Program-made: the position numbers and the translations under genes
Notes under the pieces: model-generated
What the model was told of the DNA's origin: nothing
Database searches by the model: none
What the model saw: only the letters and a program-made list of their open reading frames with translations
Shown: in pieces, positions 21,833-48,573 of the stretch
How positions within the stretch are numbered: position 1 is the first letter of the stretch
Layout of the letters: each line of letters begins with the position of its first letter
Source of the DNA: Sinorhizobium chiapasense
GTDB lineage: Bacteria; Pseudomonadota; Alphaproteobacteria; Rhizobiales; Rhizobiaceae
Length of the DNA stretch: 64,000 nt
Reading direction: 5' to 3'
NCBI RefSeq assembly: GCF_036488675.1
Contig: NZ_CP133148.1
Location: 3,965,001-4,029,000 of the forward strand

Positions 21833-22831
21833 CTAGATGTAGCTCCTGATGGCGGTCAGGATTTTTGCATCCAAAGTGATGAAGTCAGCACCGTTTTTCG
21901 CCGCCGGGGATGATCTTCGGCCCGGAATATAAACGCCGAACTGCTCGAGGCGCTTGACCTGTCCGGCGACGCGAGCGCCGAAGTCCTCTCCGATCGCGTC
22001 CGGCGACAGCGTGACAATGCTCAAGCCGGTACCAGGACACTCGGTTCCGGATCTGAAGTCTGGCGCGTCGAGTGACCAGGACGCGCCCGACAGGCCCGCC
22101 GCCAGGATCTCGACCATCAAAGCAATGTTGGCTCCTCGAGGCCCGCCAAAGGCGAGCAACGCGCCTCGCAGCGCCTTGTTCGGATCGATGGTGACTTCGC
22201 CGTTTTCATCGGTGGCCCATCCCTCGGGAATAGTGCGCCCCTCTGAAGCAGCCCGGACGATGTTGACAAACGCCGTTGCGCTCGACGACTGGTCGATGAC
22301 CAGCGGTCGCTCTGATCCCGACAGCGGAACACCGAAGGCCAGCGGATTGGTGCCGTAGACAGCCTTTGCTCCCGGCGTCGCAGCCACCACCGCAGGACTG
22401 TTGGCCACCGCAAGCGAGACCAGCCCATCGAAGGCCAGGCGCCTGACGTAGTATCCCAATTCTCCTGCCGTATAGCTGTTCTTCTGTGTGAAGATTGCCG
22501 CGCCGAAGGTGCGGGCGCGGTTGACGAGATCCTCAAAAACGAGGTCGAAGCCGAGCTGGGCGATTCCTCCATTGGCATCCGAGTGAATAAGGGCCGGAAG
22601 CCGATGCACGATGCGGGGGCTGGCACTCCCGTCAATGCGGCCCTCTCGGAAGCTCTGCAGGTAGTCCAGGAAATGTGGAAACCCCAGTTCCTCGCGGCCG
22701 ACCTCGATGGCAGACAGCGTCGCGTCCACGAGCGACTTCGTCATCAAATGGCTGGCACCTGCGGACAGGCAGGCTTCGGTCGCGAGCGACCGGGCCTCGG
22801 CAACGGACAACGTGATCCTCTCGACTGTCAT
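21833..22831 (-). CDS. Ldh_2-family NAD(P)H-dependent oxidoreductase, possible cyclic-imine reductase
   Basis: A 332-residue protein of the malate/L-lactate dehydrogenase type 2 family (YbiC, ureidoglycolate dehydrogenase, and delta1-piperideine-2-carboxylate/delta1-pyrroline-2-carboxylate reductases). Family blocks seen are the AAIFTQKNSYTAGELGYYV segment, VANSPAVVAATPGAKAVYGTNPLAFGVP, and GGPRGANIALMVEILAAGLSG. The ATG overlaps the stop of the upstream demethylase gene (TAATG), so the two are translationally coupled. Among family activities, reduction of a cyclic imine derived from proline or pipecolate fits the neighbours best, but that is inference. It is the last gene of the minus-strand betaine operon. 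Confidence 0.85.
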   Translation of the reverse strand: MTVERITLSVAEARSLATEACLSAGASHLMTKSLVDATLSAIEVGREELGFPHFLDYLQSFREGRIDGSASPRIVHRLPALIHSDANGGIAQLGFDLVFEDLVNRARTFGAAIFTQKNSYTAGELGYYVRRLAFDGLVSLAVANSPAVVAATPGAKAVYGTNPLAFGVPLSGSERPLVIDQSSSATAFVNIVRAASEGRTIPEGWATDENGEVTIDPNKALRGALLAFGGPRGANIALMVEILAAGLSGASWSLDAPDFRSGTECPGTGLSIVTLSPDAIGEDFGARVAGQVKRLEQFGVYIPGRRSSPAAKNGADFITLDAKILTAIRSYI

Positions 22832-24816
22832 TAGAGCTCCAATGCAACCTTCCTGCCTTCATAGAAGGCATAAGGCGCCTGTCGTGGGGCCGCGCAATCT
22901 CCGATTTGATGGAACGCCAGATCCTGACCCTCCAGATCTTGGGCCAGCCAGTTGGCCGACATATTTGTCGTGGCGAGGACGAGACAGTCTCCCGCGACGA
23001 AGGATTGTTGCCCGGTATTGTGGTCGACAACCGTTGCGCCGTTCCCGTGCCATTCGGCGACGCTGACTTCGAGCAGCCAGTTGACGTTGAGCCTGCTCAA
23101 GATTCGCCGAAGCGGCACGTCGGCCGTCGTTCGCTGGAGTTCCTTGCCGACGAACGGGTCCGGCGAGAGAATGGTCACCTCGTGGCCGTCCTCGGCAAGC
23201 TTCCAGGCCGTGCCGCAGCCCCGCCAGCCACCGCCTTCGTCGAGGAGCAGAACGCGCTTTCCGGGTCTTGCTTGACGCGCCATGACGGCCTCGACGGTGA
23301 ACACGTTGCCTTTCTCCATTCCAGGCAGTGTCTCGACCGCGGGCAGGGCCTTCTGAAACCCGGTTTCCGGTGAAAAGGAGCCTGTCGCAAGGATGACGGA
23401 ATCGGCCCCGTAGTCCGAAATCTCCGATGCCTCGAGATAACAGTTGAGACGCACCTCGACCTTCAGCTTGTCCAGTTGGCGTTCATACCACTGAATGAGA
23501 TCGAGGATCTGCCCGCGACGCGGCTGCATTCCGGCGAGCAGGAAGTTGCCGCCGAGCCGGCTCGAGGCTTCCACAAGGGTAACCCTATGCCCTCTCTCCG
23601 CCGCGACCCGCGCGGCCTCCAACCCTGCCGGCCCACCGCCCACGACCAGGATCTTCTTCGGTTCGGCAGTCCGGGTAAAACGGTCGCCGCCCCATTCAAA
23701 CTCCCGTCCGGCGGACGGGTTGATGAGACAGCTTATCCAGTAGTCGCGCGAGCGTCGGCCCCAACACATCTGATTGCAGGAAATGCATCCCCTGATGTCG
23801 TCCGGGCGATCGTCGCTTGCCTTTCGAGCGAGATGCGGATCGGCGATCTGGCCGCGGACGATGGACACCAGGTCCGCCGCACCTTCACCGAGTACGGTCT
23901 CGGCATTTTCCGGCGTTCTGATATGACTCTCGGCAATAACCAGCGCCTTCTTCACGGTCCGCTTGAGCGTCGCCGAGAGGTCGGCTCCGAGTTTTTCGGG
24001 GTAGAGGAAGGTGGGCATCAGCTTATGGAAGTCCAGGTAACCGCCGGACCCGCACGTGACGTAGTCGATCAGCCCGAGCTCGTCATGGATGCCGACGATC
24101 GCGGCAAGCTCCTCCCTGGAGAGCGCGACGCTGTAATCTGGCTCGTCGCTGACAGCGAGTCCGACGATGAAATCAGGCCCGCAGATCGCCCGGATCCGAG
24201 TTAGGATCTCTCGTGACATTCGCGTGCGGTTTTCCAAAGAGCCGCCCCAATCGTCGTCCCGGCGGTTCGACCACGGCGTCCAGAATTGATCGACCATGCC
24301 GAGGTAGGCGGCCCAGACCTCGACGCCGTCGAAACCCGCCTCCTGGCAGCGGCGTGCCGCCTGGACGAAGCCGTCGACCGTTTCCCAGATTTCCGCCTCG
24401 CTCATCGGATGCGAGCCATCGCTGTCATGATAGCTCGGAAGACCTGACGGCGACCAATGCGGGTGATAGGAATTGTCCGAATCGCCGTGAGCGCCGACAT
24501 GATAGAGCTGCTGGATGGCGACAGCGCCATTGTCCTTGATGGCGGCGGAAACCTTTCTGAAATGCGGGATCACGCTGTCGTCCGAGGGGCGAAAGTTCCC
24601 ACGCGTCAGCACGGCGGCGGGATGGACCGGCATGGGTTCCACAACGATCATGGCTGCCCCGCCGATCGCCCGCTCGGCGTAGTACGCCGCATGCCGCTCG
24701 GTCGGAAGGCCGCCTTCGGCCATGTTCGCCGTATGGGCTCCGAAGACGATCCTGTTTCTCAAGGTGCGCCCACCCAGTTTGATGGGGGAGGACAGGTGCG
24801 GGAAGAGCTTGGACAT
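22831..24816 (-). CDS. FMN/FAD/4Fe-4S demethylase of the NADH:flavin oxidoreductase family (StcD/TMADH-like)
   Basis: A 661-residue protein. The N-terminal 370 residues form an old-yellow-enzyme TIM barrel (LRNRIVFGAHTANMAEGG; DGVEVWAAY; WGGSLENRTR). A four-cysteine iron-sulphur site follows (CISCNQMC and a fourth Cys in WISCLINPSAG), then an FAD/NAD half with ILVVGGGPAGLEAARVAAERGH. This is the layout of trimethylamine dehydrogenase, N-methylproline demethylase and dimethylglycine dehydrogenase DgcA. The start at 24816 is supported by GGAGA six bases upstream. It sits between a betaine ABC importer and the Ldh_2 enzyme. I infer oxidative N-demethylation of an imported tertiary amine. A second family member is divergent at 29605. 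Confidence 0.88.
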   Translation of the reverse strand: MSKLFPHLSSPIKLGGRTLRNRIVFGAHTANMAEGGLPTERHAAYYAERAIGGAAMIVVEPMPVHPAAVLTRGNFRPSDDSVIPHFRKVSAAIKDNGAVAIQQLYHVGAHGDSDNSYHPHWSPSGLPSYHDSDGSHPMSEAEIWETVDGFVQAARRCQEAGFDGVEVWAAYLGMVDQFWTPWSNRRDDDWGGSLENRTRMSREILTRIRAICGPDFIVGLAVSDEPDYSVALSREELAAIVGIHDELGLIDYVTCGSGGYLDFHKLMPTFLYPEKLGADLSATLKRTVKKALVIAESHIRTPENAETVLGEGAADLVSIVRGQIADPHLARKASDDRPDDIRGCISCNQMCWGRRSRDYWISCLINPSAGREFEWGGDRFTRTAEPKKILVVGGGPAGLEAARVAAERGHRVTLVEASSRLGGNFLLAGMQPRRGQILDLIQWYERQLDKLKVEVRLNCYLEASEISDYGADSVILATGSFSPETGFQKALPAVETLPGMEKGNVFTVEAVMARQARPGKRVLLLDEGGGWRGCGTAWKLAEDGHEVTILSPDPFVGKELQRTTADVPLRRILSRLNVNWLLEVSVAEWHGNGATVVDHNTGQQSFVAGDCLVLATTNMSANWLAQDLEGQDLAFHQIGDCAAPRQAPYAFYEGRKVALEL

Positions 24817-24886: not shown

Positions 24887-25966
24887 CTACAAAGCCCTCG
24901 CCACAGAGCCGCCGTCCTGGGACGCCGCGCTATGGGAGTTGACCATCGCACCTGCAAGCTGGCGCAGGTTGACCGTCCCGATCGGTTTTCCAGTGGGGCC
25001 AACGACGGCGACATCGCCATCGGGGCCTTCGGCTATCACGCGCATGGCATCCTCGATGGTGGTTCCGGCCGGGATCGTGATGGCGCTCGGTGAAAAGCCC
25101 ACCCGTGGAGGCACCATGACAGCCTCGACGTGGACGACGCGTCCGCGATTGACCTCCTTGACGAAGTTCGCGACGTAATCATCGGCGGGCTTGAGCACGA
25201 TGTCCTGGCTGGTGCCCTGCTGGATGACTTCGCCATCGCGCAGGATGGCGATCTGGTCGCCCAGCCTGAGTGCCTCGTCGAGATCGTGGGTGATGAAGAC
25301 GATGGTCTTCCGGATCTCCTTCTGCAGGTCGAGAAGGACCGTCTGCATATCCATGCGGATCAGCGGATCGAGAGCCGAATAGGCCTCGTCCATGAGGAGC
25401 ACCGGTGCATCGTTGGCAAGCGCGCGTGCCAGACCGACGCGCTGCTGCATGCCGCCCGAAAGCTGGTTGGGGTACTTGCTCTCGAAGCCTTTCAGCCCGA
25501 CCCGCTCGATCCAGCGCATGGCGACGTCGACCGCCTTCGCGCGCTCAATGCCCTGGACCTCGAGACCATAGAGCGTGTTGTCGACGACGTTGCGATGGGG
25601 AAGAAGCGCAAACTTCTGGAACACCATCGCGGTCTGGTGCCTGCGAAACTCCCGCAGTTCGGGCTCGTTCATTTTCACGACATCGACCCCGTTCACCAGC
25701 ACCTCGCCGGCGGTCGGATCGATCAGGCGGTTGATGTGCCGGATCAGCGTCGACTTTCCCGAACCGGACAGGCCCATGATGACCTGAATGCAGCCCGAGG
25801 GCATCTCGATGTTGATGTCCTTCAGGCCCAGCACGTGGCCGAACTTCTCGTTCAACTCGGTCTTCGAGAGGCCATTTCTGACAGCCTCGACATGGGTTGC
25901 AGCGCTCGATCCGAAAATCTTGTAAAGGTTGCGGATCTTGATGCCGTCGAAATGGTGATCAGCCAT
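24887..25966 (-). CDS. Glycine betaine/proline-type ABC transporter ATPase
   Basis: A 359-residue ProV/OpuAA-type ATPase. The N-terminal KIFG...AVRNGLSKTEL extension is typical of quaternary-amine importers. Walker A is GLSGSGKS, signature LSGGMQQR, Walker B APVLLMDEAYSALDP, and the C-terminal 80 residues are a CBS-like regulatory part. The ATG at 25966 has GGGAGA upstream and overlaps the end of the permease gene by 8 bp. With the permease and binding protein upstream it forms the first of two betaine-type importers in the window. Confidence 0.94.
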   Translation of the reverse strand: MADHHFDGIKIRNLYKIFGSSAATHVEAVRNGLSKTELNEKFGHVLGLKDINIEMPSGCIQVIMGLSGSGKSTLIRHINRLIDPTAGEVLVNGVDVVKMNEPELREFRRHQTAMVFQKFALLPHRNVVDNTLYGLEVQGIERAKAVDVAMRWIERVGLKGFESKYPNQLSGGMQQRVGLARALANDAPVLLMDEAYSALDPLIRMDMQTVLLDLQKEIRKTIVFITHDLDEALRLGDQIAILRDGEVIQQGTSQDIVLKPADDYVANFVKEVNRGRVVHVEAVMVPPRVGFSPSAITIPAGTTIEDAMRVIAEGPDGDVAVVGPTGKPIGTVNLRQLAGAMVNSHSAASQDGGSVARAL

Positions 25967-26840
25967 GGACGATCTCCCGGTGCTTCTGGAGCCGCTTGCC
26001 ATAGGCCTGGCTGACCCGGTCGAAGATGATGGCGATGCCGACGATGGCAACGCCGTTGAAGATACCGAGTGTGAAATACTGGTTGGCAATCGCCTTCAGA
26101 ACCGGCTGGCCGAGGCCCTGGACACCGATCATCGAAGCGATGACGACCATCGCGAGCGCCATCATGATGGTCTGGTTGATGCCGGCCATTATGGTCGGCA
26201 GCGCCAGCGGCAATTGCACGTTCTTAAGCTTCTGCCAGCTCGACGAGCCGAAGGCGTCGGCGGCCTCGAGGACGTCCTTGTCGACCAGCCGAATGCCGAG
26301 ATCGGTGAGGCGGATCATCGGCGGGATGGCGTAGATGACCACCGCGATCAGCCCTGGAACCTTGCCGATGCCGAGCAGCATAACCACGGGAATGAGATAG
26401 ACGAAACTCGGCATCGTCTGCATGACGTCGAGCACCGGATTGACCAGCCGCTGCAGCCGGTCGGAACGGGACATCAGGATCGGGATGCCGATTGCGATCG
26501 ACAGAAGAGTGCAGACGAAGATCATCGAGATCGTCCGCATCGTGTCGTCCCACATGTCGAAGTAGCCGATCGCCAGCAATGTGACGAGGCAGCCAAGCAC
26601 CACTTTCCAGTTTCTGCTCGCGCCCCAGGCGATCCCCAGGACGATCAGCGTGATGATCGGCCAGGGCGTCTGCGTCATGAAGCGTTCGGAAGCGATCAGG
26701 AAGTGCTGCAAGGGCGAGAAGAAGCCCTCGATCGCATCACCGTACGCGCGCGTGAATGCCCGGAATCCCTCGTCGATCGCCTTCTTCAGATTGCGCAGGG
26801 AGTCGTCGTTCATGTGCGGGAATTCGTAAAACCAGTCCAT
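25959..26840 (-). CDS. Glycine betaine/proline-type ABC transporter permease
   Basis: A 293-residue ProW-like inner-membrane protein. A long N-terminal part precedes the helices, and the permease loop reads LLGIGKVPGLIAVVIYAIPPMIRLTDLGIR and later AADAFGSSSWQKLKNVQLPLALPTIMAGINQTI, the hallmark of this family. This importer has only one permease gene, so the channel would be a homodimer. It lies between the binding-protein gene (96 bp upstream, with a strong hairpin) and the ATPase gene (8-bp overlap). Confidence 0.94.
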   Translation of the reverse strand: MDWFYEFPHMNDDSLRNLKKAIDEGFRAFTRAYGDAIEGFFSPLQHFLIASERFMTQTPWPIITLIVLGIAWGASRNWKVVLGCLVTLLAIGYFDMWDDTMRTISMIFVCTLLSIAIGIPILMSRSDRLQRLVNPVLDVMQTMPSFVYLIPVVMLLGIGKVPGLIAVVIYAIPPMIRLTDLGIRLVDKDVLEAADAFGSSSWQKLKNVQLPLALPTIMAGINQTIMMALAMVVIASMIGVQGLGQPVLKAIANQYFTLGIFNGVAIVGIAIIFDRVSQAYGKRLQKHREIVHG

Positions 26841-26936: not shown

Positions 26937-27938
26937 TCAGAGCGCCGCCTTGATCTTCTCGGCGGCCTCCGGAGAGACCCACTTCGTCCAGAGGTCCTCG
27001 TTCTCCTCGAGGAAGTGCTTGGCGCCTTCTTCGCCGCTCGCCTGGTTGTCCGTCATCCAGGCCATCAGCTTGCTGACGGTGTCGTTGCTCCAGGACCGTT
27101 TGTTCAGGTAGTCCATGACCTCCGGACCAGCCTTCTCCGAGAAGGGCTTGGCCACCAGCGTCACGATGGTGTCGACCGGCCACGCGGTTGGCTTCGGGTC
27201 AGGGCAATCGGCCACGGTAACGCACCGCTTCCACTCCGCTGAGTCTTCCGCAACGCCTGGTTCCAGCTTGACCATCTGATATTTGCCAAGCAGCGCGGTT
27301 GGTGCCCAATAGTAGCCGACCCAGGCTTCCTTGGACTCGTATGCCTTGGCGATAGAGCCGTCCAAGCCGGCGGCAGAACCGGTGTCGACGAGCTTGAATC
27401 CGGCTTTCTCGGCATCGAACGCCTTGAAGAGCTGAGAAGTGACGACGGTGCCGCCCCAGCCCTGGGGGCCATTGAAGATCGCACCCTTCTTGGGGTCTTC
27501 CGGATCGGGAAACAGGTCCGGGTGCTTCAACATGTCGGGAATTGTCTTGATGTCCGGATGGGCATCCGCGAAATATTTCGGGATCCACCAGCCTTGCACG
27601 CCGCCATCAGGCAGCGGAGAGCCGACCTTGATGATACGGCCTTCTTCCGTTCCCTTCTTGACAACGTCCGGCAGCAGATCGATCCACGCCTCCGGCGCGA
27701 TATCCGGCTCGCCCTTTTCCGCCATGGAGGTGATCGTCGGCACGGTGTCGCCGATGGTGATTTCGGCGTCGCAGCCATAGCCCTCGTTCAATATGATCTT
27801 GTCGAGGTTGGAGAGCACTTCCGCGCTCTGCCAGTTCATGCTCGCGATTGTCAGCGATCCGCATTCCGCGGCGCTGCTGGCGGACGCGCCTCCCAGTACG
27901 CCCAGCATGAGGCAAGTCGATGCAAGTAGATACTTCAT
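26937..27938 (-). CDS. Glycine betaine/proline-type ABC transporter, substrate-binding protein
   Basis: A 333-residue exported binding protein of the OpuAC family. The ATG at 27938 has GGGAA upstream and starts a standard signal peptide (MKYLLASTCLMLGVLGGASASSAAE); earlier in-frame codons encode arginine-rich nonsense. The mature protein begins with LTIASMNWQSAE and contains several tryptophans spaced as in betaine-binding pockets (PEAWID, QGWW, GYYWAPT). Cysteine pairs near the start (ECGSL and GYGCDAE) and at KRCVTVADC could form disulphides. It leads the importer genes on the minus strand. Confidence 0.93.
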   Translation of the reverse strand: MKYLLASTCLMLGVLGGASASSAAECGSLTIASMNWQSAEVLSNLDKIILNEGYGCDAEITIGDTVPTITSMAEKGEPDIAPEAWIDLLPDVVKKGTEEGRIIKVGSPLPDGGVQGWWIPKYFADAHPDIKTIPDMLKHPDLFPDPEDPKKGAIFNGPQGWGGTVVTSQLFKAFDAEKAGFKLVDTGSAAGLDGSIAKAYESKEAWVGYYWAPTALLGKYQMVKLEPGVAEDSAEWKRCVTVADCPDPKPTAWPVDTIVTLVAKPFSEKAGPEVMDYLNKRSWSNDTVSKLMAWMTDNQASGEEGAKHFLEENEDLWTKWVSPEAAEKIKAAL

Positions 27939-28018: not shown

Positions 28019-28813
28019 TCAGGAGTGCTCCCCCATATTCATCGATTTCTGAAAGGCTGCCGCGAGCCCGTCCCGGACGGCGGCGTCGAAGCCGGCGGCG
28101 CGCATGGCTTCGATCGCAGCGGCGGTGGTCCCGCGGTAGCCGACAAACGCCTCGACCGTATCGGCGGGACATTCGCCGTTCTTCTCGAAGAGACGCCCGG
28201 ACCCGATGAGCACGGAGATAACCGCCCGTCGTGCCACGTCCGGCTTGATGCCGCGCGACACGGCATCGCGCATCATGGCGTCAGCCAGGAGCGCCGGGAA
28301 AGCCGGCCCGGAACCGGAAAGGCCGGTCAGATAGTCGATGTCGCTCTCGCTTGCGACCTCGTCCTGCGTTCCGCAGGCCCCGAAAATTGCGCGCACCGCA
28401 GCGCGGTCCTGGTCGTTCACGCCTTCCGTGCCGATCCAGGGTGTGTAGGACTTGCCGACCTCAGCCGCGGCGTTAGGCAAAGCGCGGACGACCCTCTTCG
28501 TGTTGTGGTGTTCAGCCAACTGGGTCAAACGAATGCCGGCCATGACGGATATTACGAGCCTGCCATCGGCATCGATCACGAGCGGCGGCCAATCGGCGGG
28601 CCGGACCGAGACAATGATCACGTCCGACCGGTCGGCCAGCTGTTGATTGTCGGTGGTCCAGAAAGAACCGTTAAAGCGGTTCGGTTGCGCCGTGCGATAA
28701 GAGAGGGAAAGATCACGCGGCTGCACCAGACCGGTATCGAGGAGTGAAGCGGCAATCGCCCCACCGAGCCAGCCGCCTCCACCAACTATGCCGATCCGCA
28801 ATGAGCCGCTCAT
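28019..28813 (-). CDS. Pyrroline-5-carboxylate reductase family protein (ProC-like)
   Basis: A 264-residue NAD(P)H-dependent reductase of the ProC fold. The N-terminal Rossmann motif is RIGIVGGGGWLGGAIAASLL, then VVRALPNAAAEVGKS and the C-terminal dimer domain with LTGLSGSGPAFPALLADAM, the ProC signature. Canonical ProC makes proline from P5C. Its place between a TetR gene and a betaine importer, next to demethylases and an Ldh_2 enzyme, suggests a catabolic or related imine substrate instead, or proline salvage. It starts 6 bp after the TetR stop and is probably in one operon with it and the importer genes. Confidence 0.87.
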   Translation of the reverse strand: MSGSLRIGIVGGGGWLGGAIAASLLDTGLVQPRDLSLSYRTAQPNRFNGSFWTTDNQQLADRSDVIIVSVRPADWPPLVIDADGRLVISVMAGIRLTQLAEHHNTKRVVRALPNAAAEVGKSYTPWIGTEGVNDQDRAAVRAIFGACGTQDEVASESDIDYLTGLSGSGPAFPALLADAMMRDAVSRGIKPDVARRAVISVLIGSGRLFEKNGECPADTVEAFVGYRGTTAAAIEAMRAAGFDAAVRDGLAAAFQKSMNMGEHS

Positions 28814-28819: not shown

Positions 28820-29458
28820 TTATCCTCTCCCCTCAGGCTTGTAGCCGTGCCGCGAAAAGAAACGATCCAGTTCCCTTTGCTCCGGCACCTGGCCTGTGTA
28901 GATGGCGATGTACTCGGGGATCCGCTTCATGCGGGTGGCGATATCCTCCTGAGTCTGCATCGTGATGTAGCCGATCTGAACCAGGTAGGTCGTGCGGGCG
29001 CGGACATCGGCGGTGATGTCCGAATGACCGAAACGGATAAACATCCGCTTGAGAGCCTCCAATCGGACCTGGTCGGCCCGCTGAACTTCGCTCAGAATGT
29101 CTTCGGACTGGAGCGCCCAGCTGCGCACGGCAAACTCGAATTTCGAGTCGAACAGGTCCTTGTTCAGCCAGCAATCGAAAACGTTAAGCATCGCTTCGGC
29201 CAGAGATTCCGCATAGGCCTCCGACTGCTTCACGATATTGCCGGTATTCTTGTCCCGCCAACGGCCAATGAGCGCTGCCAACAGTTCTTCCCGGTCCTTG
29301 AAGAACCAGTAGAAGCTCGTTCGCGACAGACTGAGCCTCTTTGCCAATGGCAGAATCTTTACCGAGTCCACGCCGCCTTCCAGCAGGGACTCGTAGGCCG
29401 CCTCCAGCCATCCCTCCTGCGATCCGCGCCAGCCGCTATCGTTCAAAACCTGCTCCAT
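28820..29458 (-). CDS. TetR-family regulator of the betaine genes
   Basis: A 212-residue TetR-family protein: the helix-turn-helix is LAKRLSLSRTSFYWFFKDREELLAAL (residues 38-63), followed by an all-helical ligand domain. It is divergent from the StcD-like demethylase at 29605 and first in the minus-strand operon leading to the ProC-like protein and importer. The 146-bp divergent gap holds two ATGTACAT palindromes, the best candidates for its binding sites. It probably represses both directions in the absence of the betaine or a breakdown product. Confidence 0.86.
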   Translation of the reverse strand: MEQVLNDSGWRGSQEGWLEAAYESLLEGGVDSVKILPLAKRLSLSRTSFYWFFKDREELLAALIGRWRDKNTGNIVKQSEAYAESLAEAMLNVFDCWLNKDLFDSKFEFAVRSWALQSEDILSEVQRADQVRLEALKRMFIRFGHSDITADVRARTTYLVQIGYITMQTQEDIATRMKRIPEYIAIYTGQVPEQRELDRFFSRHGYKPEGRG

Positions 29459-38110: not shown

Positions 38111-38824
38111 GTGAAGAGCGGCAAAAACGGTCTCTACGAAGATTTGAAACGGCAGATCCTGACGATGGAGCTCGATCCCGACGAGGACCTGGACGAGCTG
38201 GCCCTCAGCGAGCGGTACGGCGTGTCGCGCACTCCGGTGCGCGAAATCATCCGCCGTCTTGAGGGCGAGGGCTACGTCGAGATTCGCGAGAACCGGGGCG
38301 CGCGGGTGGCGCCGATGAACCACTCGACGCTCAGGAACTTCTTTCTGGTCGCGCCGATGGTCTACGCGGCGATCGGCCGGCTCTCCGTACAGAACTTCAA
38401 GCCCAGGCAGCTCGTAGACCTTAAGGACACCCAGGAGCGGTTTCGCACTGCGGCCAGTTCCAAGGACGCCCCTTCGATGGTGCTGGAGAACAACCGTTTC
38501 CACGAGATCATGGGCGAGATGTCGGGCAACGTCTACCTGCAGCCCAGTCTCAGCCGCCTCCTGATCGATCACGCGCGCATCGGCCACACCTTCTTCCGCC
38601 CGCGCAACGAGGACATGGAAAAGCGCCTGCGCATCGCCGTCGAGCATCACGACGCGTTCATTGCGGCGATCGCGGCACATGACGAAGACGCGGTCGTCGA
38701 CCTTGTCTTCGAGCACTGGGAACTCTCGCGAGAGAACATGCAGATGTTCATAGCGCCGCAAGGCCTCAAGGCGGACGCCTTGGTCGATGGCCCGGTCACA
38801 CTGTCGATGGAGAAACTGTCTTGA
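38111..38824 (+). CDS. GntR-family (FadR/VanR subgroup) regulator
   Basis: A 237-residue regulator. GTG at 38111 follows GAGGAGG by five bases and is preferred over an earlier ATG. The N-terminal winged helix (YEDLKRQILTMELDPDEDLDELALSERYGVSRTPVREIIRRLEGEGYV) is followed by an FCD ligand domain with the conserved metal-binding His residues (NNRFHEIMGEM, HHDAFI). It overlaps the next gene by four bases, so it is first in an operon with the DapA-family enzyme, aldehyde dehydrogenase and oxidase, and probably regulates it. Confidence 0.9.
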   Translation: MKSGKNGLYEDLKRQILTMELDPDEDLDELALSERYGVSRTPVREIIRRLEGEGYVEIRENRGARVAPMNHSTLRNFFLVAPMVYAAIGRLSVQNFKPRQLVDLKDTQERFRTAASSKDAPSMVLENNRFHEIMGEMSGNVYLQPSLSRLLIDHARIGHTFFRPRNEDMEKRLRIAVEHHDAFIAAIAAHDEDAVVDLVFEHWELSRENMQMFIAPQGLKADALVDGPVTLSMEKLS

Positions 38825-41239: not shown

Positions 41240-42582
41240 ACCAGCACTCGGTCAGGCGACTGCCCGTCGATACCGGAACATCCGGCTGGGAGGCAATCAG
41301 CACCCGCGGATTCCCGACGCAGACGCTTGAGAACGACGTACGCGCCGACTGGCTTGTCATCGGCGCGGGCTTCGCCGGTCTCTCGGCCGCCCGGAGACTG
41401 TCGCAGCTGAGGCCCGGCGAGAAGATCGTCGTGCTCGATGCAACGGAGGTTGCAAAGAGCACGGCGGGACGCAACTCGGGTTACATGATCGACGTGCCGC
41501 ACAATCTTTCGTCCGGCGAATATTCGGTCGCCGACGAGAAGTCGACACTCCTGGAAATCGAGCAGAATCGGCTGGCAATCTCCTTTGCCGCGGAGGCTGC
41601 CGCCGAATACGGCATGTCGAAGGAGACATTCGATCCATCCGGCAAGATCAATGCCGCGGCAAGCGAACGCGGACTGAAACTCAACGACAACTATAGCCGG
41701 TCGCTCGAGCGCATAGGCGAGAAATCCGAGCTCTTCGACGCGAAGCAGATGCGCGAGATTACCGGCTCGGACTATTACCGCGGCGGGCTCCACACGCCCG
41801 GCGCCGTCATGATTCAGCCGGCGGACTACATCCGCGGTCTGGTGAGCGGCCTGGGACCGAAGATCGAACTTTACGAGCGATCGCCGGTCCTCGAACTGAC
41901 CCGGCAGCAAAAACACTGGAAGGCACGGTCCGGTCGCGGCACGGTAACGGCTCCGAAGGTGATCCTTGGCGTGAATGGCCATGTCGAGAGCTTCGGCTAC
42001 TTCCGTCATCGGCTGATGCATGTCTTCACCTACGCATCGATGACGGCCGCCTTCTCGCCGGACCAGATCCGAAAAGGGGTGACCGGCGTCGACCGGTGGG
42101 CGCTGCTGCCGGCAGATCCGATGGGCGCCACGGTGAGGAAGATCAGCAGCGGCGGACGTTCGCGCATCGTGATCAGAACCCGCTTCACCTATGACCCGAG
42201 CCTTGAAGTATCTGCGAAGCGTGTCGCCGGAATAGCGGCCGAGCAGAGACGGTCGCTCGACGCCCGTTTTCCCGGACTTGAGCGCCTGCCGTTCGAGTTC
42301 AGCTGGGCCGGTGCGCTTTGCCTCAGCAGGAATCATGTTCCGGCCTTCGGCGAACTCGAGGAGGGGCTGTATTCCGCCTGCTGCGAAAACGGCCTTGGCA
42401 CGGTCAAGAGCACCCTGGCCGGCATGATGGCGGCGGAACTCGCCACCGACACCGAGAGTCCGAATCTCGAGAAATACAAGTCACAACCGAAACCGAGCCG
42501 GTTGCCGCCGGAGCCTCTGGCCTGGCTCGGCATCAACTCGGTCATCCGCTGGCAGGAATTGCGAGCTGGCCGGGAGGGCTAA
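41236..42582 (+). CDS. FAD-dependent amino-acid/amine oxidoreductase (DAO family)
   Basis: A 448-residue flavoprotein with the dinucleotide motif DWLVIGAGFAGLSAARRL (about residues 38-55), the DAO-family second motif SAGRNSGYM-like segment (KSTAGRNSGYMIDVPHN) and a C-terminal flavin-contacting ENGLGTVKSTLAG. It resembles PuuB/OrdL oxidases. No signal peptide is visible. In this operon it may oxidise an N-methyl or D-amino acid such as D-hydroxyproline to the cyclic imine used by the deaminase. It starts in overlap with the dehydrogenase stop (ATGA). Confidence 0.86.
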   Translation: MNQHSVRRLPVDTGTSGWEAISTRGFPTQTLENDVRADWLVIGAGFAGLSAARRLSQLRPGEKIVVLDATEVAKSTAGRNSGYMIDVPHNLSSGEYSVADEKSTLLEIEQNRLAISFAAEAAAEYGMSKETFDPSGKINAAASERGLKLNDNYSRSLERIGEKSELFDAKQMREITGSDYYRGGLHTPGAVMIQPADYIRGLVSGLGPKIELYERSPVLELTRQQKHWKARSGRGTVTAPKVILGVNGHVESFGYFRHRLMHVFTYASMTAAFSPDQIRKGVTGVDRWALLPADPMGATVRKISSGGRSRIVIRTRFTYDPSLEVSAKRVAGIAAEQRRSLDARFPGLERLPFEFSWAGALCLSRNHVPAFGELEEGLYSACCENGLGTVKSTLAGMMAAELATDTESPNLEKYKSQPKPSRLPPEPLAWLGINSVIRWQELRAGREG

Positions 42583-42657: not shown

Positions 42658-43509
42658 GTGAAGACACTTTGGAAAGCATTGTGCGCCGCTGCAATGGTCG
42701 GCCTGACCATGATGCCCGCTCGCGCCGAAGAGAAGACCATCGAGATGGGAACCCTCTCGTGGGAGGACCTGACGCCGATCACCGGCATTACGAAGAAGGT
42801 TCTGGAAGACGCCGGCTATACCGTGAAGGTAACCGAGTTTTCGGAGTGGGGCATCGCCTATGCGGCGCTCAGCAAGGGCGATATCCAGATCCTCGCCTCG
42901 CAGACCGACTATGTCGCCCAGGACTACTGGGACAAGAACAAGAACCGACTCGAGAAGATCTCGCCGGTGTCTCACGGTCTCTACCAGGGCGTCGCGGTGC
43001 CCAAATACGTCAGCATCGACTCCGTCGACCAGCTCAATGACAACGCGGACAAGTTCGGCGGAAAGATCATCGGGATCGAGCCGGGCTCGGGCCTGATGCG
43101 CGACACCGCGTCGGCAGTCAAGGAATATGACCTCAAGCTTCAACTCGTGGAAGGCAGCACCGCGGCCATGACCGCAGCGCTCAAGTCGGCAATCGACAGA
43201 CAGGAGTGGGTCGCCGTCACCATCTGGGAGCCGTCGTGGATGATGCAGAAATACGACGTGAAGTTCCTGAAGGACCCGAAGGGCGTCTTTCCGCCGCCGC
43301 AGAGCTACTACTGGATCGGCCAAAAAGGCTTCTCGGAGGAAAACCCGCAGGCACGCGAGGTGCTGGCAAGCGTCTACGTTCCTCTGGCGGACATCACCGC
43401 GATCAATAGTGCCGTCAGCGACGGCAAGAAGATGGATGAGGCCGTCAAGGACTGGACGGATCGCCACGCCGACCTCCTGAAACGGTGGGCAAACATCAAG
43501 AACTACTGA
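42658..43509 (+). CDS. Second betaine-type ABC transporter, substrate-binding protein
   Basis: A 283-residue OpuAC-family binding protein with a clear signal peptide (MKTLWKALCAAAMVGLTMMPARAEE). GTG at 42658 is used, with an AGGAG site upstream. The ligand-binding region has EFSEWGIAYAAL, QTDYVAQDYWDKN and VTIWEPSWMMQKY, with aromatic residues suited to a quaternary ammonium group. It is clearly different from the first binding protein at 26937, so the two importers probably take different substrates. It is followed by its ATPase and two permeases. Confidence 0.93.
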   Translation: MKTLWKALCAAAMVGLTMMPARAEEKTIEMGTLSWEDLTPITGITKKVLEDAGYTVKVTEFSEWGIAYAALSKGDIQILASQTDYVAQDYWDKNKNRLEKISPVSHGLYQGVAVPKYVSIDSVDQLNDNADKFGGKIIGIEPGSGLMRDTASAVKEYDLKLQLVEGSTAAMTAALKSAIDRQEWVAVTIWEPSWMMQKYDVKFLKDPKGVFPPPQSYYWIGQKGFSEENPQAREVLASVYVPLADITAINSAVSDGKKMDEAVKDWTDRHADLLKRWANIKNY

Positions 43510-43617: not shown

Positions 43618-44706
43618 ATGACAAGCATCCATACGAATGAAGTGCTGATCGACTGCCAATCGGTGTGGAAGATCTTTGGTGACAAGGCACCCGCCGCGAT
43701 GGAAGCAGTTGCGAAGCGCGGTTTGTCGAAAAAGCAGATCCTGCAGGACTACAATTGCGTGGTCGGCGTTTCCGACGCCAGCCTGCAGGTTCGTCGCGGC
43801 GAAATCTTCTGCATCATGGGATTGTCGGGCAGCGGCAAGTCTACCTTGATCAGGCTTCTGAACAGGTTGATCGCCCCAAGCTTCGGCAAGGTGCTGGTGA
43901 AGGGCAGGGACCTGTCGGCCCTCGACGCGACTGAACTCCGGCAGATGCGAGCCCAGAACATCGGCATGGTCTTCCAGAGCGTGGCGCTGCTTCCGCATCG
44001 AACGGTGCTCGAGAATGCGGCCTTCGGTCTCGAGGTGCAGGGCATTGCGAAAGCCGAGAGGAACCGGACCGCTCAAGCAGCGCTTGAGAAAGTCGGACTT
44101 GGCGACTGGCTCGGTCGCTATCCCGCAGAACTATCCGGCGGCATGCAGCAGCGCGTCGGCCTGGCGCGTGCCATCGCCTCGGATCCGGAAATCATCCTCA
44201 TGGACGAGCCGTTCAGCGCGCTTGACCCGCTCATTCGCCGGCAGTTGCAGGACGAATTCCGGCAGCTCACGAAAGAGCTCGGCAAATCAGCGGTGTTCAT
44301 CACGCACGACCTCGACGAGGCCATCCGCATCGGCGACCGCATCGCGATCATGAAGGACGGCGTCATCATACAGGTGGGGACCGCCGAGGACATCGTTCTC
44401 AATCCGGCGGATCAATATGTCGCCGACTTTGTGGCCGGTATTTCCCGCCTCCACCTTATCAAGGCCCATTCGGTCATGGTCCCGGTCGCCGACTATCAGC
44501 GACAGCATCCGGGCAGCGACATCGGCACCCTCGGCAGAACGACGCCCGAGGCCGATATCGATGAGCTGATCGGGCTCACCATGCAATCGGACCGCGACGC
44601 GATCGCCGTTCTGGACAGCGGAACTGTCGTCGGAGTGGTGACCGCGCGGAGCCTGCTTGCCGGCGTCAAGGGGACGCCGATCGGCGAGCAGGCCGCGGCA
44701 GCCTAG
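43618..44706 (+). CDS. Second betaine-type ABC transporter, ATPase
   Basis: A 362-residue ProV/OpuAA-type protein: VWKIFG...AVAKRGLSKKQIL extension, Walker A GLSGSGKS, signature LSGGMQQR, Walker B EIILMDEPFSALDP, and a C-terminal CBS-like part (DIDELIGLTMQSDRDAIAVLDSG). AAGGGG precedes the ATG. It lies 108 bp after the binding-protein gene and 13 bp before the first permease gene. Confidence 0.94.
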   Translation: MTSIHTNEVLIDCQSVWKIFGDKAPAAMEAVAKRGLSKKQILQDYNCVVGVSDASLQVRRGEIFCIMGLSGSGKSTLIRLLNRLIAPSFGKVLVKGRDLSALDATELRQMRAQNIGMVFQSVALLPHRTVLENAAFGLEVQGIAKAERNRTAQAALEKVGLGDWLGRYPAELSGGMQQRVGLARAIASDPEIILMDEPFSALDPLIRRQLQDEFRQLTKELGKSAVFITHDLDEAIRIGDRIAIMKDGVIIQVGTAEDIVLNPADQYVADFVAGISRLHLIKAHSVMVPVADYQRQHPGSDIGTLGRTTPEADIDELIGLTMQSDRDAIAVLDSGTVVGVVTARSLLAGVKGTPIGEQAAAA

Positions 44707-44719
44707 AGGAGCGTTCGAC

Positions 44720-45568
44720 ATGGAGACTGCGGCTTTCGCGGATACGTTCGACGCGTGGACGGACTCGGCTCTGGAGTGGCTGAGCGACAATGGTGAATTC
44801 CTCTTCGACCTCGTGCGAACGATGCTTGAAGGATTCTACGAGGGCATTCTATGGCTGCTCGAGCTACCGCCCTTTTATGTGATGGCGATTGTTCTCGCCA
44901 TTGCCGGATGGCGGCTGGTCGGTGCGTGGTTTGGCGCACTGACCGGCACAGCCCTCGTCATTTGCTCGCTCATGGGGCTGTGGCCGGAAACCATGAGCAC
45001 CTTGGCCCTGGTGATGACCGCGACTTCGTTGGCGCTTTGCGTTGGATTGCCGATCGGCGTGCTTGCCGGCTTTCTGCCGGCGCTCGACCGATTGCTGGAG
45101 CCGGCCCTGGATCTCATCCAGACCCTGCCGCCGTACATCTACCTCCTGCCGGCGATTGCGCTTTTGGGCTACGGACCAGCGACGGCGCTCATCGCGACCT
45201 TTGTCGTCGCCATGCCTCCGGCCGTCCGACTGACGTCGCTCGGCATCCGCATGACCCCGCACGAGTTCATCGAACTGGGCCAGGCAGTCGGGATCACGAA
45301 ATGGCAGATGTTCTTCAAGATCCGTCTGCCCTTCGCGATGCCGAGCATCATGGCGGGCATCAACCAGAGCCTGATGATGGCGTTCGGAATGGTCGTCATC
45401 GCCGGCATCGTCGGGTCAGGCGGCCTTGGCGAGACGATCTACGGGGCAATCCGCACGCTCGATATCGCCAGGTCGATCGATGCCGCCATCGCAATCGTCG
45501 TGCTGACCATGGTGCTTGATCGCATCACGCAGAGTGCGGCCCGCTTCGGCAAGGGAGGGACACCATGA
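44720..45568 (+). CDS. Second betaine-type ABC transporter, permease 1
   Basis: A 282-residue ProW-like permease. The ATG at 44720 has GAGGAG upstream, while in-frame codons before it overlap the ATPase gene. The membrane loop reads LLGYGPATALIATFVVAMPPAVRLTSLGIR, then GITKWQMFFKIRLPFAMPSIMAGINQSLMM. It overlaps the second permease gene by four bases (ATGA). Confidence 0.93.
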   Translation: METAAFADTFDAWTDSALEWLSDNGEFLFDLVRTMLEGFYEGILWLLELPPFYVMAIVLAIAGWRLVGAWFGALTGTALVICSLMGLWPETMSTLALVMTATSLALCVGLPIGVLAGFLPALDRLLEPALDLIQTLPPYIYLLPAIALLGYGPATALIATFVVAMPPAVRLTSLGIRMTPHEFIELGQAVGITKWQMFFKIRLPFAMPSIMAGINQSLMMAFGMVVIAGIVGSGGLGETIYGAIRTLDIARSIDAAIAIVVLTMVLDRITQSAARFGKGGTP

Positions 45569-46416
45569 ATCCGGATAGCTTTCAGTTTTCGCCGGGAACA
45601 TACTTGGCGCCCGCTGTCGACTGGCTAAACGCCAACTTCCATCCGCTGTTCGCCTTGATCACCAATGTCGTCGAGGCTGTGCTTTCGGGGATCGAGGCGG
45701 CGCTGCTCTCGCTGCCAGCCATCATGCTGATCACAATCGTGATGCTTCTCGCTTTCTTCCTCGTGAACATTCGGGCGACCATCCTCGCGGGCCTGGCACT
45801 CGGTTTTTGCCTTCTCATGGGTCTCTGGGACGCTTCGATGCAGACGATTGCTCTTGTCACCGTGGCCGTGGCGATTTCCGTCCTGATCGGCTTCCCGCTT
45901 GGCATCCTTGCCTCTCGCGTCAAGGCGGTCGAGGCGGCGATCCGCCCGGTTCTCGACATTATGCAGACCGTGCCTCCATGGGTCTATCTCATTCCTGCGG
46001 TCATGATCTTCAGCCTGGGGCGGGTACCCGCGATCATTGCGACGATCGTCTACGGCATACCGCCGATGCTGCGCCTGACGACACTCGCCTTCAACCAGGT
46101 TCCGAAGGACATGCTCGAACTCGGCCAGGCGATCGGCGCCTCGCCGCGCTCCATTCTGTTCAAGATCGAAATTCCCGCGGCAAAGCCAACCCTGCTTGTC
46201 GGCCTCAATCAATGCATCCTGCTGTCGCTTGCCATGGTCGTCTTGGCTGGCCTCGTCGGCGCGGGCGGGCTCGGCGCCGAAGTGACACGCGGATTGACGC
46301 GAATGGAGATGGGCCTTGGCCTGCGCGCCGGGCTTGCGATCGTTGCGGTCGCGCTTCTTCTCGACAGGCTCTCGCGCGGCGCGCTTCAGCGTGACCGAAG
46401 CAGAGCCACAGGCTGA
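45565..46416 (+). CDS. Second betaine-type ABC transporter, permease 2
   Basis: A 283-residue ProW-like permease, homologous to its neighbour: FSLGRVPAIIATIVYGIPPMLRLTTLAFN and GASPRSILFKIEIPAAKPTLLVGLNQCI. Two permeases imply a heterodimeric channel, unlike the one-permease importer at 24887-27938. The following epimerase-family gene starts 13 bp after its stop. Confidence 0.93.
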   Translation: MNPDSFQFSPGTYLAPAVDWLNANFHPLFALITNVVEAVLSGIEAALLSLPAIMLITIVMLLAFFLVNIRATILAGLALGFCLLMGLWDASMQTIALVTVAVAISVLIGFPLGILASRVKAVEAAIRPVLDIMQTVPPWVYLIPAVMIFSLGRVPAIIATIVYGIPPMLRLTTLAFNQVPKDMLELGQAIGASPRSILFKIEIPAAKPTLLVGLNQCILLSLAMVVLAGLVGAGGLGAEVTRGLTRMEMGLGLRAGLAIVAVALLLDRLSRGALQRDRSRATG

Positions 46417-46428
46417 TTGGATCTGATC

Positions 46429-47427
46429 ATGCGGCACAGTTTCTTCTGCATCGATTCACACACCTGCGGCAATCCGGTCCGTGTCGTCGCCGGGGGCGGG
46501 CCTCTGCTTCCGCATCTGCCGATCTTCGAGCGCCGCGAGATCTTCGTCCGCGACCATGACTGGATCCGCAAGGCGCTGATGTTCGAGCCGCGCGGCCACG
46601 ACGTGATGTCCGGCGCTATCATCTATCCGGCCTTCAGGGACGATTGCGACTTCGCGGCGCTCTTCATCGAGGTTAGCGGCTGCCTGCCGATGTGCGGCGC
46701 AGGCACCATCGGCCTCTCGACCGTCGTGCTTGAGGAAGGTCTTGTCCGATCCAGGACGCCCGGCACCCTCTCGATCGAGACGCCGGCGGGACGGGTGGAC
46801 GTCAAGTACGGGATGGACGGCGATTTCGTTAAAAGCGTCCGCCTGTTCAATGTCGCGAGCTACCTGCATGACGCGGACGTCGAGGTCGATGTTCCCGGTG
46901 TCGGGCGCCTCGTGGTGGACATCGCCTACGGCGGCAACTTCTACGCGGTCGTCGAACCTCAGCGGAACTGGCCGGGCCTTGACGGCACGACGGCGTCCGA
47001 GCTCGTCGGCCTCAGCCAGAAACTCCGCACGGCACTTGCAGACGCTTGCGATCCCGTGCATCCCGAGGATGAGCGGATTCGTGGCGTCCACCATGTCATC
47101 TGGTGCGATCGGGCAAGAGACGAAAACGCCGACGGTCGCGGCGCCGTCTTCTATGGCGATAAGGCGATCGATCGTTCGCCGGGCGGGACCGGAACGTCCG
47201 CCCGCATGGCTCAGTTGCACGGAAAAGGGCGATTGAGGATCGGCGAGACCTACCGAAGCGAAAGCCTGATCGGTACGATTTTCGAAGGGCGGGTCGACGC
47301 GGCCGCCAAGGTCGGGACGCACGAGGGCATCATGCCGAGCATCGGCGCATGGGCGCGGATCACCGGGCACAACACGATCTTCGTCGATGATCGCGATCCA
47401 TTGGCCCACGGGTTTCAGATCAAATGA
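46429..47427 (+). CDS. Proline racemase/hydroxyproline epimerase superfamily protein with altered active site
   Basis: A 332-residue protein of the proline racemase superfamily. The first catalytic cysteine is present (Cys89 in LPMCGAGTIGL), but the His that normally follows (MCGHG) is Ala91. The second catalytic position, Cys in racemases and epimerases and Thr in trans-3-hydroxyproline dehydratases, is Gly252 (DRSPGGTGTSARM). The start ATG at 46429 is preferred to an upstream TTG; its ribosome-binding site is weak. It follows the second betaine importer closely. A classical two-base epimerisation looks unlikely, so the reaction may differ. Confidence 0.85.
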   Translation: MRHSFFCIDSHTCGNPVRVVAGGGPLLPHLPIFERREIFVRDHDWIRKALMFEPRGHDVMSGAIIYPAFRDDCDFAALFIEVSGCLPMCGAGTIGLSTVVLEEGLVRSRTPGTLSIETPAGRVDVKYGMDGDFVKSVRLFNVASYLHDADVEVDVPGVGRLVVDIAYGGNFYAVVEPQRNWPGLDGTTASELVGLSQKLRTALADACDPVHPEDERIRGVHHVIWCDRARDENADGRGAVFYGDKAIDRSPGGTGTSARMAQLHGKGRLRIGETYRSESLIGTIFEGRVDAAAKVGTHEGIMPSIGAWARITGHNTIFVDDRDPLAHGFQIK

Positions 47428-47508: not shown

Positions 47509-48573
47509 ATGGGACACTCCATTCAATCATCGTCGTCGGGGGTCGCCCCGCAGCTGCAGCGGCTGAAAATCGGCTTCATCCTCGCCCGATCCTTCACGTT
47601 GTCGGCCTTCGCGTTGTTCGTCGACACCCTGCGGCTGGCGAGCGACCAGCTCGACCGATCGGGCCGGGTCCTCGCCGATTGGCAGGTCCTCGGCAGCACG
47701 AGGCACCTGATCACCTCGAGCTGCGGTGTTCAGGTCGCTCCGACTTCCGACTTCGTCGATCCCTGCCAATTCGATTACATCGCCGTTGTCGGCGGCCTGC
47801 TGACTGTCGAACAACCGGTCGACCATGAAACCATCCGCTTTCTCAGACAGGCCGCTTCGAAAAGGGTCCCGTTGATTGGCCTGTGCACCGGTTCCTTCAT
47901 TCTCGCGGAAGCGGGCCTGATGAAAGAGCACGCGACCTGTGTGAGCTGGCTTCACTATCACCAGTTCCGCGAACGTTTTCCTGATCATGAAGTCCGACCG
48001 GACCGGCTGTTCAATCTGGACCGCAAGCGCGGCTCTTGCGCAGGGGGAAGCAGCGCCGCCGATCTCGCGGCCGCCCTGGTGAGGCGGCACATCAGTTCGG
48101 ACGCCGAGCGTAACGCGCTTGAAGTGCTGCAGATTGAGAAGGCCCGTTCGCAGTTCGACAATCAGACGCGACAGCCGCTGCGCGATTACGTCAACGACTC
48201 CCGGGTTGCGGCCGTTCTGATAACCATGGAACAGCATCTTGAAGGTGGAATCACCATTGAGGGGCTTGCGGCCTCGGTCGGGCTTTCAAGGCGCCAACTC
48301 GAGCGGCTGTTCACTGAAAAAACGAGGATGTCTCCCGCTCTGGCTTTCCGTCGTCTCCGACTGGATCGAGCGAAGCAGATTTTGCTGACGAGCAGGAAAC
48401 CCATAATCGAAGTTGCCCTCGACGTCGGGTTTGTGAACACCTCGCATTTTACCAAGGAGTTTCGGCGCACCTACGGTCGAACGCCCGCAGAAATCCGGGA
48501 TTCCGCGGCGCGCGATCGGGAAGCGCCTGGCGAGAAAGGGTCCCCCGCGATGAAACACGCGGGTTGGCTGTAA
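47509..48573 (+). CDS. GlxA/GbdR-type AraC-family regulator
   Basis: A 354-residue regulator with an N-terminal DJ-1/PfpI-like domain (KIGFILARSFTLSAFALFVDTLRLA; nucleophile-elbow-like LIGLCTGSFILAEAG) and a C-terminal AraC DNA-binding domain (ITIEGLAASVGLSRRQLERLF and DVGFVNTSHFTKEFRRTYGRTPAEIR). This architecture is shared with GbdR, CdhR and related regulators of glycine-betaine, carnitine and choline catabolism, which fits the betaine genes before it. It is transcribed in the same direction, 81 bp after the epimerase-family gene. Confidence 0.92.
   Translation: MGHSIQSSSSGVAPQLQRLKIGFILARSFTLSAFALFVDTLRLASDQLDRSGRVLADWQVLGSTRHLITSSCGVQVAPTSDFVDPCQFDYIAVVGGLLTVEQPVDHETIRFLRQAASKRVPLIGLCTGSFILAEAGLMKEHATCVSWLHYHQFRERFPDHEVRPDRLFNLDRKRGSCAGGSSAADLAAALVRRHISSDAERNALEVLQIEKARSQFDNQTRQPLRDYVNDSRVAAVLITMEQHLEGGITIEGLAASVGLSRRQLERLFTEKTRMSPALAFRRLRLDRAKQILLTSRKPIIEVALDVGFVNTSHFTKEFRRTYGRTPAEIRDSAARDREAPGEKGSPAMKHAGWL

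Follow-up and report, generated by a model that had tools for sequence, protein, structure and literature searches.

Gene content of the region

The region described here spans positions 21833 to 48573 of a 64-kb stretch of DNA (hereafter the window) from the 6.87 Mb genome of Sinorhizobium chiapasense. It holds 24 genes (Table 1), which are arranged in two modules: module A (21833-37698), which resembles the stachydrine (stc) loci, and module B (38111-48573), a hydroxyproline-like module that encodes a protein of the proline racemase superfamily with an altered active site, here designated PRS-G. A preliminary description of this DNA had named the kinds to which 23 of these genes belong, including four regulators (TetR, LysR, GntR and AraC), and all of them were recovered; the remaining gene, a cupin of the dimethylsulfoniopropionate (DMSP) lyase family, had been overlooked. 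The names come from Pfam and NCBIfam scans of open reading frames taken from the first start codon, with some starts extended; GntR was named by NCBIfam, and EtfA, which was not in the Pfam scan, by its translation and an annotated orthologue. Start positions were also assessed for ATPase 1, OpuAC1, EtfB, GntR and permease 2.

In module A, the genes for Ldh_2, StcD1, the OpuA1 importer (three genes), the ProC-like protein and TetR lie on the minus strand, followed on the plus strand by StcD2, the cupin and EtfBA; the remainder of the module consists of the reductase and Rieske genes on the minus strand and LysR on the plus strand. Module B lies wholly on the plus strand, its genes overlapping or separated by short gaps, in the order GntR, DapA, aldehyde dehydrogenase (ALDH), DAO, OpuA2 (four genes), PRS-G and AraC. 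One of the two OpuA importers is thus composed of an ATPase, a permease and a binding protein, and the other has two permeases.

Table 1. Genes of the region in their order along the window, with the matches on which the names are based
Gene product	Position	Strand	Basis
Ldh_2-family reductase, ketimine-reductase candidate, module A	21833..22831	-	PF02615 E 2e-65; relatives 58-62% in stc-type loci L102, L103; 88% in L115
StcD1, second TMADH/StcD-like demethylase	22831..24816	-	PF00724 + PF07992; start by Shine-Dalgarno-like sequence
OpuA-type ATPase 1, module A importer	24887..25966	-	PF00005; proV TIGR01186 334 bits (cut-off 326.6)
OpuA-type permease 1	25959..26840	-	PF00528
OpuAC1 binding protein, module A	26937..27938	-	PF04069 E 1e-64
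ProC-like reductase	28019..28813	-	PF14748 (P5CR_dimer); proC TIGR00112 172 bits, under cut-off 197
TetR regulator, module A	28820..29458	-	PF00440
StcD2, N-methylproline demethylase (StcD) candidate	29605..31641	+	PF00724; 96% to gene in S. fredii L103
Cupin, DMSP-lyase family	31798..32400	+	PF16867 DMSP_lyase E 4e-62; aligned with DMSP lyases 5cu1 and DddQ 4la2
EtfB	32438..33187	+	PF01012
EtfA	33213..34142	+	Translation; 82% to annotated EtfA of R. johnstonii
Rieske oxygenase reductase (FAD/NAD/2Fe-2S)	34286..35374	-	PF00970, PF00175, PF00111
Rieske oxygenase, quaternary-amine type, divergent from Stc2	35364..36617	-	PF00355 + PF00848; 354 bits to 3vca
LysR (GcvA-like) regulator	36733..37698	+	PF03466/PF00126
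GntR regulator, opens module B	38111..38824	+	GntR-type NCBIfam matches, under cut-offs
DapA-family lyase/deaminase, HypD-like candidate	38821..39729	+	PF00701 (DHDPS) E 4e-56
Aldehyde dehydrogenase, closest model PuuC	39722..41239	+	PF00171; NF007352 529 bits (cut-off 850)
DAO-family oxidase, distantly AmaA-like	41236..42582	+	PF01266; NF050086 112 bits (cut-off 600)
OpuAC2 binding protein, SQTDY at one Trp position of OpuAC family	42658..43509	+	PF04069 E 2e-65; alignment
OpuA-type ATPase 2	43618..44706	+	PF00005; proV 351 bits (cut-off 326.6)
OpuA-type permease 2	44720..45568	+	PF00528
OpuA-type permease 3	45565..46416	+	PF00528
PRS-G, proline-racemase-superfamily protein: Cys89/Gly252, Ala91 for His, Asp248 kept	46429..47427	+	PF05544 E 6e-128; start as in 332-aa homologues
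AraC-family regulator, GbdR-like	47509..48573	+	PF12833 + PF01965; NF052371 GbdR 225 bits (cut-off 480)

In the upstream flank, a PAS histidine kinase and a fused double-ATPase peptide-type ABC protein (19439-21070 and 17356-19203) showed no link to the region. About 12 kb past module B lies a Gfa-like gene (60992-61567), of a kind involved in glutathione-dependent formaldehyde handling, with 72% identity to the Gfa of R. johnstonii.

Module A and the stachydrine-type loci

Judged by its genes, module A is built like a stachydrine locus. In the corresponding locus of S. fredii USDA 205 (L103; comparison loci are given by such numbers), a peptidase-M24 gene, the reductase and the Rieske gene are found together with LysR, Ldh_2, OpuA1, ProC-like, TetR, StcD2, cupin and EtfBA genes, and the window shares 96% identity with it in StcD2 and 86-96% in the OpuA1 proteins. 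The L103 Rieske aligns with 3vca of S. meliloti across 412 of 412 residues (833 bits), and we take 3vca to be Stc2, the stachydrine demethylase. The window likewise holds a StcD-like gene, EtfBA, an OpuA importer and a ProC-like gene in one neighbourhood, while its Rieske, at the score given in Table 1, is not a Stc2 orthologue. The closest solved relatives of this Rieske are 4qup ('Monoxygenase; demethylase') and 3vca, followed by 3n0q and then by the carnitine oxygenase 6y8j, so that its nearest structures are quaternary-ammonium demethylases; the Rieske classes used here are defined by pairwise identities and bit scores. Many plasmid records, among them those of Rhizobium, Ensifer and Shinella, contain relatives of 80-90%; a relative of 92% comes from a Sinorhizobium locus (L139) that has module A and no strong PRS match. 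The sole other Rieske match in the S. chiapasense genome (E up to 1e-20) is situated at C1:659 kb together with a reductase, and neither StcD2 nor OpuA1 was found near it in the 20 kb fetched. StcD1 was confined to the window and Sinorhizobium sp. 6-70 (L115) among the A loci scanned, and it may be a recent addition.

In regard to expression of the importer, passages of one study report that a gene 96% identical to pRL120516, which encodes QatX3, is up in bean and pea bacteroids (PMC6421345), and those of another name pRL120524 as the AdhI gene (PMC5758756). From the order of the tags, the Qat3 system (pRL120514-6) is probably the OpuA1 of R. leguminosarum.

Relatives of two unrelated DMSP-lyase families are, by sequence, present in stachydrine-type and B loci. 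The PF16867 cupin is positioned between StcD2 and EtfB in the window and in L093 (which has cupins at 935-1540 and 3290-3985), L096-L098, L100, L103 and L139; it also adjoins StcD2 in L099, with no Etf match after it, and in L101 and L115, where the stretch ends. No cupin stands beside StcD2 in L104, L107-L110 and L114, L113 has a 34% relative within ~4 kb, and the L102 stretch ends before this position. The second protein belongs to the peptidase-M24 family and is related to DddP, a DMSP lyase (367-431 bits against a cut-off of 600). Its gene stands next to those for the Rieske protein and the reductase both in loci of the stachydrine type and in 17 of 83 B loci, 16 of them rhizobial and one from Pseudomonas. 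Genes of this kind are present in L041 (12073-13353), L092 (13097-14368), L102 and L103, but not in the window. The idea that the M24 gene and the second cupin replace each other was rejected, because L038 and L046 have both, with the cupin upstream (L097 and L096). In Ensifer sp. BR816, the locus of the stachydrine type (L102, 6.7-9.9 kb) also includes a second Ldh_2 gene and two further Pro_racemase genes, both distant (29% and 32%).

Module B and its proline-racemase-superfamily protein

A scan of GTDB genomes, from which the best 80 of 196 loci were kept, recovered module B from Rhizobium, Sinorhizobium, Mesorhizobium, Agrobacterium, Pseudomonas, Azospirillum, Paracoccus and others, the closest named relatives by the PRS protein being Sinorhizobium sp. 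6-70 and Ensifer sp. BR816. The whole set was found in most of these loci, with mainly the importer genes and PRS-G retained in L018, L025 and L059. On this comparison of gene sets, module B is a conserved operon. Its DAO-family oxidase gave no match in a search of PDB sequences.

The preliminary description had already called the hydroxyproline-epimerase-family protein altered, and the alteration lies in the active site: PRS-G reads PMCGAGTIG and DRSPGGTG, while the Cys/Cys paralogue in the same genome, 58% identical to it, reads PMCGHGTIG and DRSPCGTG. The second-site motif DRSPGGTG was found in 80 of 80 loci and the first-site MCGAG in all 77 that could be read, the first-site pattern being unmatched in three of the 80 loci and in 8 of 120 proteins. 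Among the 120 homologues listed from a large protein database, the second site is Gly in 119 and Ser in one. Cys89, Ala91, Asp248 and Gly252 are invariant in 19 aligned PRS-G members. The nearest proteins read outside the group (60-66%; L120, L122, L123 and L124) have the canonical MCGHG and DRSPCG, in a reading of both sites that omits five misframed rows (L125, L127, OWN_t3HypD, OWN_L004 and OWN_L005) and in which L132 has X at two first-site positions.

Passages of a study of the superfamily (PMC4113996) describe epimerisation by two residues on opposite faces, with His90 and Asp232 contacting the prolyl nitrogen; they also describe dehydratases without the second Cys, note further clusters without one or both Cys, and present Ser/Cys members as known to epimerise. 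In PRS-G the two-base dyad is absent, Cys/Cys having become Cys/Gly and His having become Ala, and the Cys/Cys or Ser/Cys pair of 4-hydroxyproline epimerase (4HypE) is thus missing. Because of this Cys/Gly pair and the two-residue mechanism of the superfamily, PRS-G is predicted not to be a two-base epimerase. The place given to it in the preliminary description, as a part of ordinary 4-hydroxyproline degradation, is consequently doubtful, and the 'epimerase' annotations in the PRS-G group are unsupported by the active-site sequence.

The database names seen for PRS-G homologues are nevertheless mostly '4-hydroxyproline epimerase', and they imply that PRS-G is an ordinary, Gly-tolerant 4-hydroxyproline 2-epimerase and module B a second hydroxyproline operon. 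The family model agrees with them, since PRS-G scores 559 bits on NCBIfam PRK13971 with a cut-off of 376. Moreover, the proteins B9J8G8 and B9JHU6 presumably come from R. rhizogenes K84, and since the family is represented by no more than two proteins in R. rhizogenes NBRC 13257 (L049), PRS-G being one, an assayed protein may be a PRS-G. Both accessions appear as assayed in passages of the 2014 superfamily study (PMC4113996). The step to K84 is however loose, as a second genome bearing the name R. rhizogenes (L031) encodes more of them, and Gly cannot act as acid/base. In addition, each of the six PRS-G genomes checked has at least one further family member with Cys at the second site; the first site of those members was read in only three genes, where it is Ser. 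Since such members are present and Ser/Cys members are known to epimerise, 4-hydroxyproline epimerase activity of PRS-G would be redundant, and we consider this explanation unlikely.

The ordinary hydroxyproline genes seem to be located elsewhere. The S. chiapasense genome has five Pro_racemase genes, i.e., four besides PRS-G, and a Cys/Cys member and a Ser/Thr member stand together at C1:3468-3472 kb, where the adjoining gene looks by eye like aconitase-X. This stretch (L006) is 83-84% identical to S. meliloti pSymB DNA (L012) over 7.1 and 2.6 kb (9.7 kb), and the matching pSymB stretch is, we assume, the hyp locus. In S. meliloti, according to passages on hydroxyproline metabolism, SMb20269 is the aconitase-X (LhpI) gene (PMC5144071). 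Compared with module B, L012 gave scattered weak protein matches besides the 58% of PRS, and the two are not an orthologous set. As far as such comparisons go, the genome has its ordinary hydroxyproline locus outside module B.

Alternatively, PRS-G could be a 3-hydroxyproline-type dehydratase acting on the demethylated or methylated ring, with the ProC-like or Ldh_2 protein reducing the cyclic imine to proline. As stated in passages of the superfamily study (PMC4113996), the trans-3-hydroxyproline dehydratases known so far retain the first of the two catalytic residues but not the second Cys, and proline ketimine is reduced by MLD2 (Ldh_2) proteins found near members of the family; module A has both reductases, and a ProC-like gene directly follows PRS-G in 6 of 80 loci. 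The known enzymes, however, carry Cys/Thr or Ser/Thr, not Gly, PRS-G is below the cut-offs of NF045511 and NF047722, and the DAO, DapA and ALDH proteins of module B would be useless in that route, which makes it quite improbable.

It is also conceivable, as a rather speculative proposal to which we give low odds, that PRS-G has a function new to the superfamily and acts at the C-alpha of N-methylated hydroxyproline, either the betaine or an N-methyl form, replacing HpbD. If so, the loss of the Cys and of the His that contacts the prolyl nitrogen in 4HypE would make room for N-methyl groups, and many proteins of the group now called 4-hydroxyproline epimerase would be misnamed.

The binding protein of the module B importer is altered as well. 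OpuAC2 keeps Trp in two stretches conserved with solved OpuAC proteins, and SQTDY replaces the third Trp; this stretch is kept in 77 OpuAC2 orthologues as in the window, with T being I in 6 of 78. These Trp residues presumably form the betaine cage of the OpuAC-type site. The ligand of OpuAC2 may thus be different from glycine betaine, and the altered site would suit a free imino acid just as well as a ligand that is hydroxylated or has lost some of its methyl groups.

Linkage of the modules and a putative betaine pathway

Linkage of the two modules was counted in 50 genomes hand-picked from the 80, with genes within 30 kb of PRS-G taken as near and those on separate contigs as not near; the StcD-like hits tabulated leave out those below 56%, a partial hit in G221 (59%) and another in G219 (65%). 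Of the 19 genomes with the window-type Rieske, 11 have it near PRS-G; the corresponding figures are 6 of 45 for other quaternary-amine Rieskes, 8 of 33 for StcD2 (at least 75%) and 0 of 16 for the control, the Cys/Cys-type paralogue. By arithmetic, the 60-kb span is ~1% of such genomes. Chance adjacency of A and B is disfavoured by these counts. In a sample of the genus, a PRS match (E up to 1e-150) was present in 9 of 33 genomes, one of them, at 63%, being Cys/Cys (L122). The B-type epimerase-family gene (at least 86%) was found in 8 of the 33 and the window-type Rieske in 4, with both in 3 genomes, ~10 kb apart.

The arrangements differ from locus to locus. A Rieske gene was found in 26 of the 80 loci (21 at 80-82% and 5 at 41-44%; 27 under a looser coverage rule). 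It lies downstream of B in 21 of the 80, and a Rieske upstream of B was seen in the window, L111 and L141. In two Pseudomonas genomes (L104-L107), B is flanked by a different Rieske at one end and by TetR, ProC and StcD2 at the other, L107 also having EtfBA and an AdhIII-like gene. On pRL12 of R. johnstonii 3841 the order is StcD2-cupin-EtfBA-cupin-AdhIII-FghA-Gfa-B-reductase-Rieske with LysR, where AdhIII-FghA-Gfa are genes of glutathione-dependent formaldehyde oxidation, and putA follows ~15 kb on; L096-L098 agree with this arrangement over the part fetched. In Mesorhizobium sp. WSM3862 (L050), a methyltransferase of the MTTB superfamily (12163-13785) lies beside B, and a module-A-type importer replaces the B importer. 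Other B loci have serine hydroxymethyltransferase inside or near B, or sarcosine oxidase genes beside it (L085, 8629-9909; L018, 12139-20114; L010, 1-5264); the SoxA piece of L010 used as a query was frame-guessed, with 19 stops as X, and the one locus that it found was also matched by an intact SoxB query.

As A and B stand side by side repeatedly in distant bacteria, they probably cooperate on plant betaines. We propose, with a probability of about 0.5, that they are two separable catabolic modules repeatedly joined by selection for cyclic betaines, of which the betaines of proline and hydroxyproline are the likeliest. The proposal is based on the genes that A shares with the S. fredii locus, which are most of them, on the linkage of Rieske and PRS-G, on the varied arrangements, on the pRL12 stretch and on the MTTB gene in L050. 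For the substrates, the order of steps, the enzymatic activities and the reaction of PRS-G, we infer the following. OpuA1 would import the betaine. Removal of the first N-methyl group, as formaldehyde, would fall to the two-component Rieske oxygenase, and removal of the second to flavoenzymes of the StcD type that are coupled to EtfBA. The resulting proline would pass to PutA, while a hydroxylated imino acid would enter module B, where PRS-G would act at C-alpha, the DAO oxidase would form a cyclic imine, the DapA-like enzyme would open and deaminate it, and the aldehyde dehydrogenase would yield 2-oxoglutarate. Pipecolate betaine was set aside as a substrate, since the DAO protein is only distantly AmaA-like and nothing else points there.

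Several observations weigh against this proposal. PRS-G has no second acid/base residue of the kind needed by a two-base 4-hydroxyproline epimerase, the loss of one Trp in OpuAC2 argues against an ordinary betaine ligand, and the DapA and ALDH of module B are only 37% and 40% identical to counterparts beside another Pro_racemase gene in the same genome. B occurs without A in Allorhizobium ampelinum S4, among unrelated neighbours, and in Rhizobium indicum, beside sarcosine oxidase genes, and A occurs without B in one Shinella and one Sinorhizobium. In 48 of 80 B loci, none of the demethylase or one-carbon gene types tested was found in the fetched flanks of at most 10 kb on each side, flanks which miss some genes: in L057 and L013, for instance, a Rieske gene situated 9.6-9.8 kb upstream of PRS-G falls outside them. 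Finally, the genomes are related to one another and the 50 were a selection, which means that the fractions cannot be treated as independent.

The separate occurrence of the modules could also mean that they are independent pathways sharing the rhizosphere niche, with A serving proline betaine, B importing and degrading a free (hydroxy)imino acid, and adjacency being a convenience. The altered OpuAC2 site is in accordance with this, as is the separation of StcD2 from B, which amounts to 3.35 Mb in BR816; in S. americanum, S. fredii and S. glycinis the two are found on different contigs. Independence would however leave aside the recurrent joining of the modules in unlike orders, with unlike Rieskes and beside formaldehyde detoxification genes, as well as the MTTB gene of one locus, and we hold it to be possible, though less than probable. 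The preliminary description had proposed one joint pathway and had named separate conservation of the sub-operons as evidence to the contrary. What stands is a stachydrine-type module beside a hydroxyproline-like one, linked across genomes in several orders; each module also occurs alone, and a single indivisible pathway is therefore given up.

Literature searches (titles and passages) found no paper on this cluster. Passages of one study state that stachydrine from Medicago seeds, a seed exudate, enhances root colonisation and nodulation and activates NodD2, and they note stcD (PMC12239276). A conserved cluster joining betaine demethylation with a hydroxyproline-like route would offer a concrete, testable hydroxyproline betaine pathway in soil and root bacteria.

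Three known systems can be compared with the region. The HpbD hydroxyproline betaine pathway reportedly starts with an enolase-type epimerase and shares with the proposed route Rieske and flavin demethylation followed by hydroxyproline degradation. The work on it by Zhao in 2013 and Kumar in 2014 is cited in the superfamily study (PMC4113996). The region differs in having a racemase-superfamily protein, and, in line with the preliminary description, no enolase-type betaine epimerase is present among its scanned open reading frames, the rest of the genome not having been searched for one. With the trans-4-hydroxyproline (hyp) pathway, as outlined in passages of the superfamily study, module B shares the four superfamilies of 4HypE, the c4Hyp oxidase, the DHDPS-type deaminase and the 2-oxoglutarate semialdehyde dehydrogenase (PMC4113996). 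It differs from that pathway in the Cys/Gly pair of PRS-G and in its ChoXWV/OpuA-like importer, and the stretch similar to the pSymB hyp DNA is found elsewhere in the genome. The stc locus is the third: Rieske, reductase, LysR, Ldh_2, OpuA, ProC-like, TetR, StcD2, cupin and EtfBA genes are clustered in both L103 and the window, whereas the window Rieske is ~44% identical to the S. fredii gene and its operon lies on the opposite side of the set. The window furthermore has no M24 gene, and it has in addition StcD1 and an attached module B.

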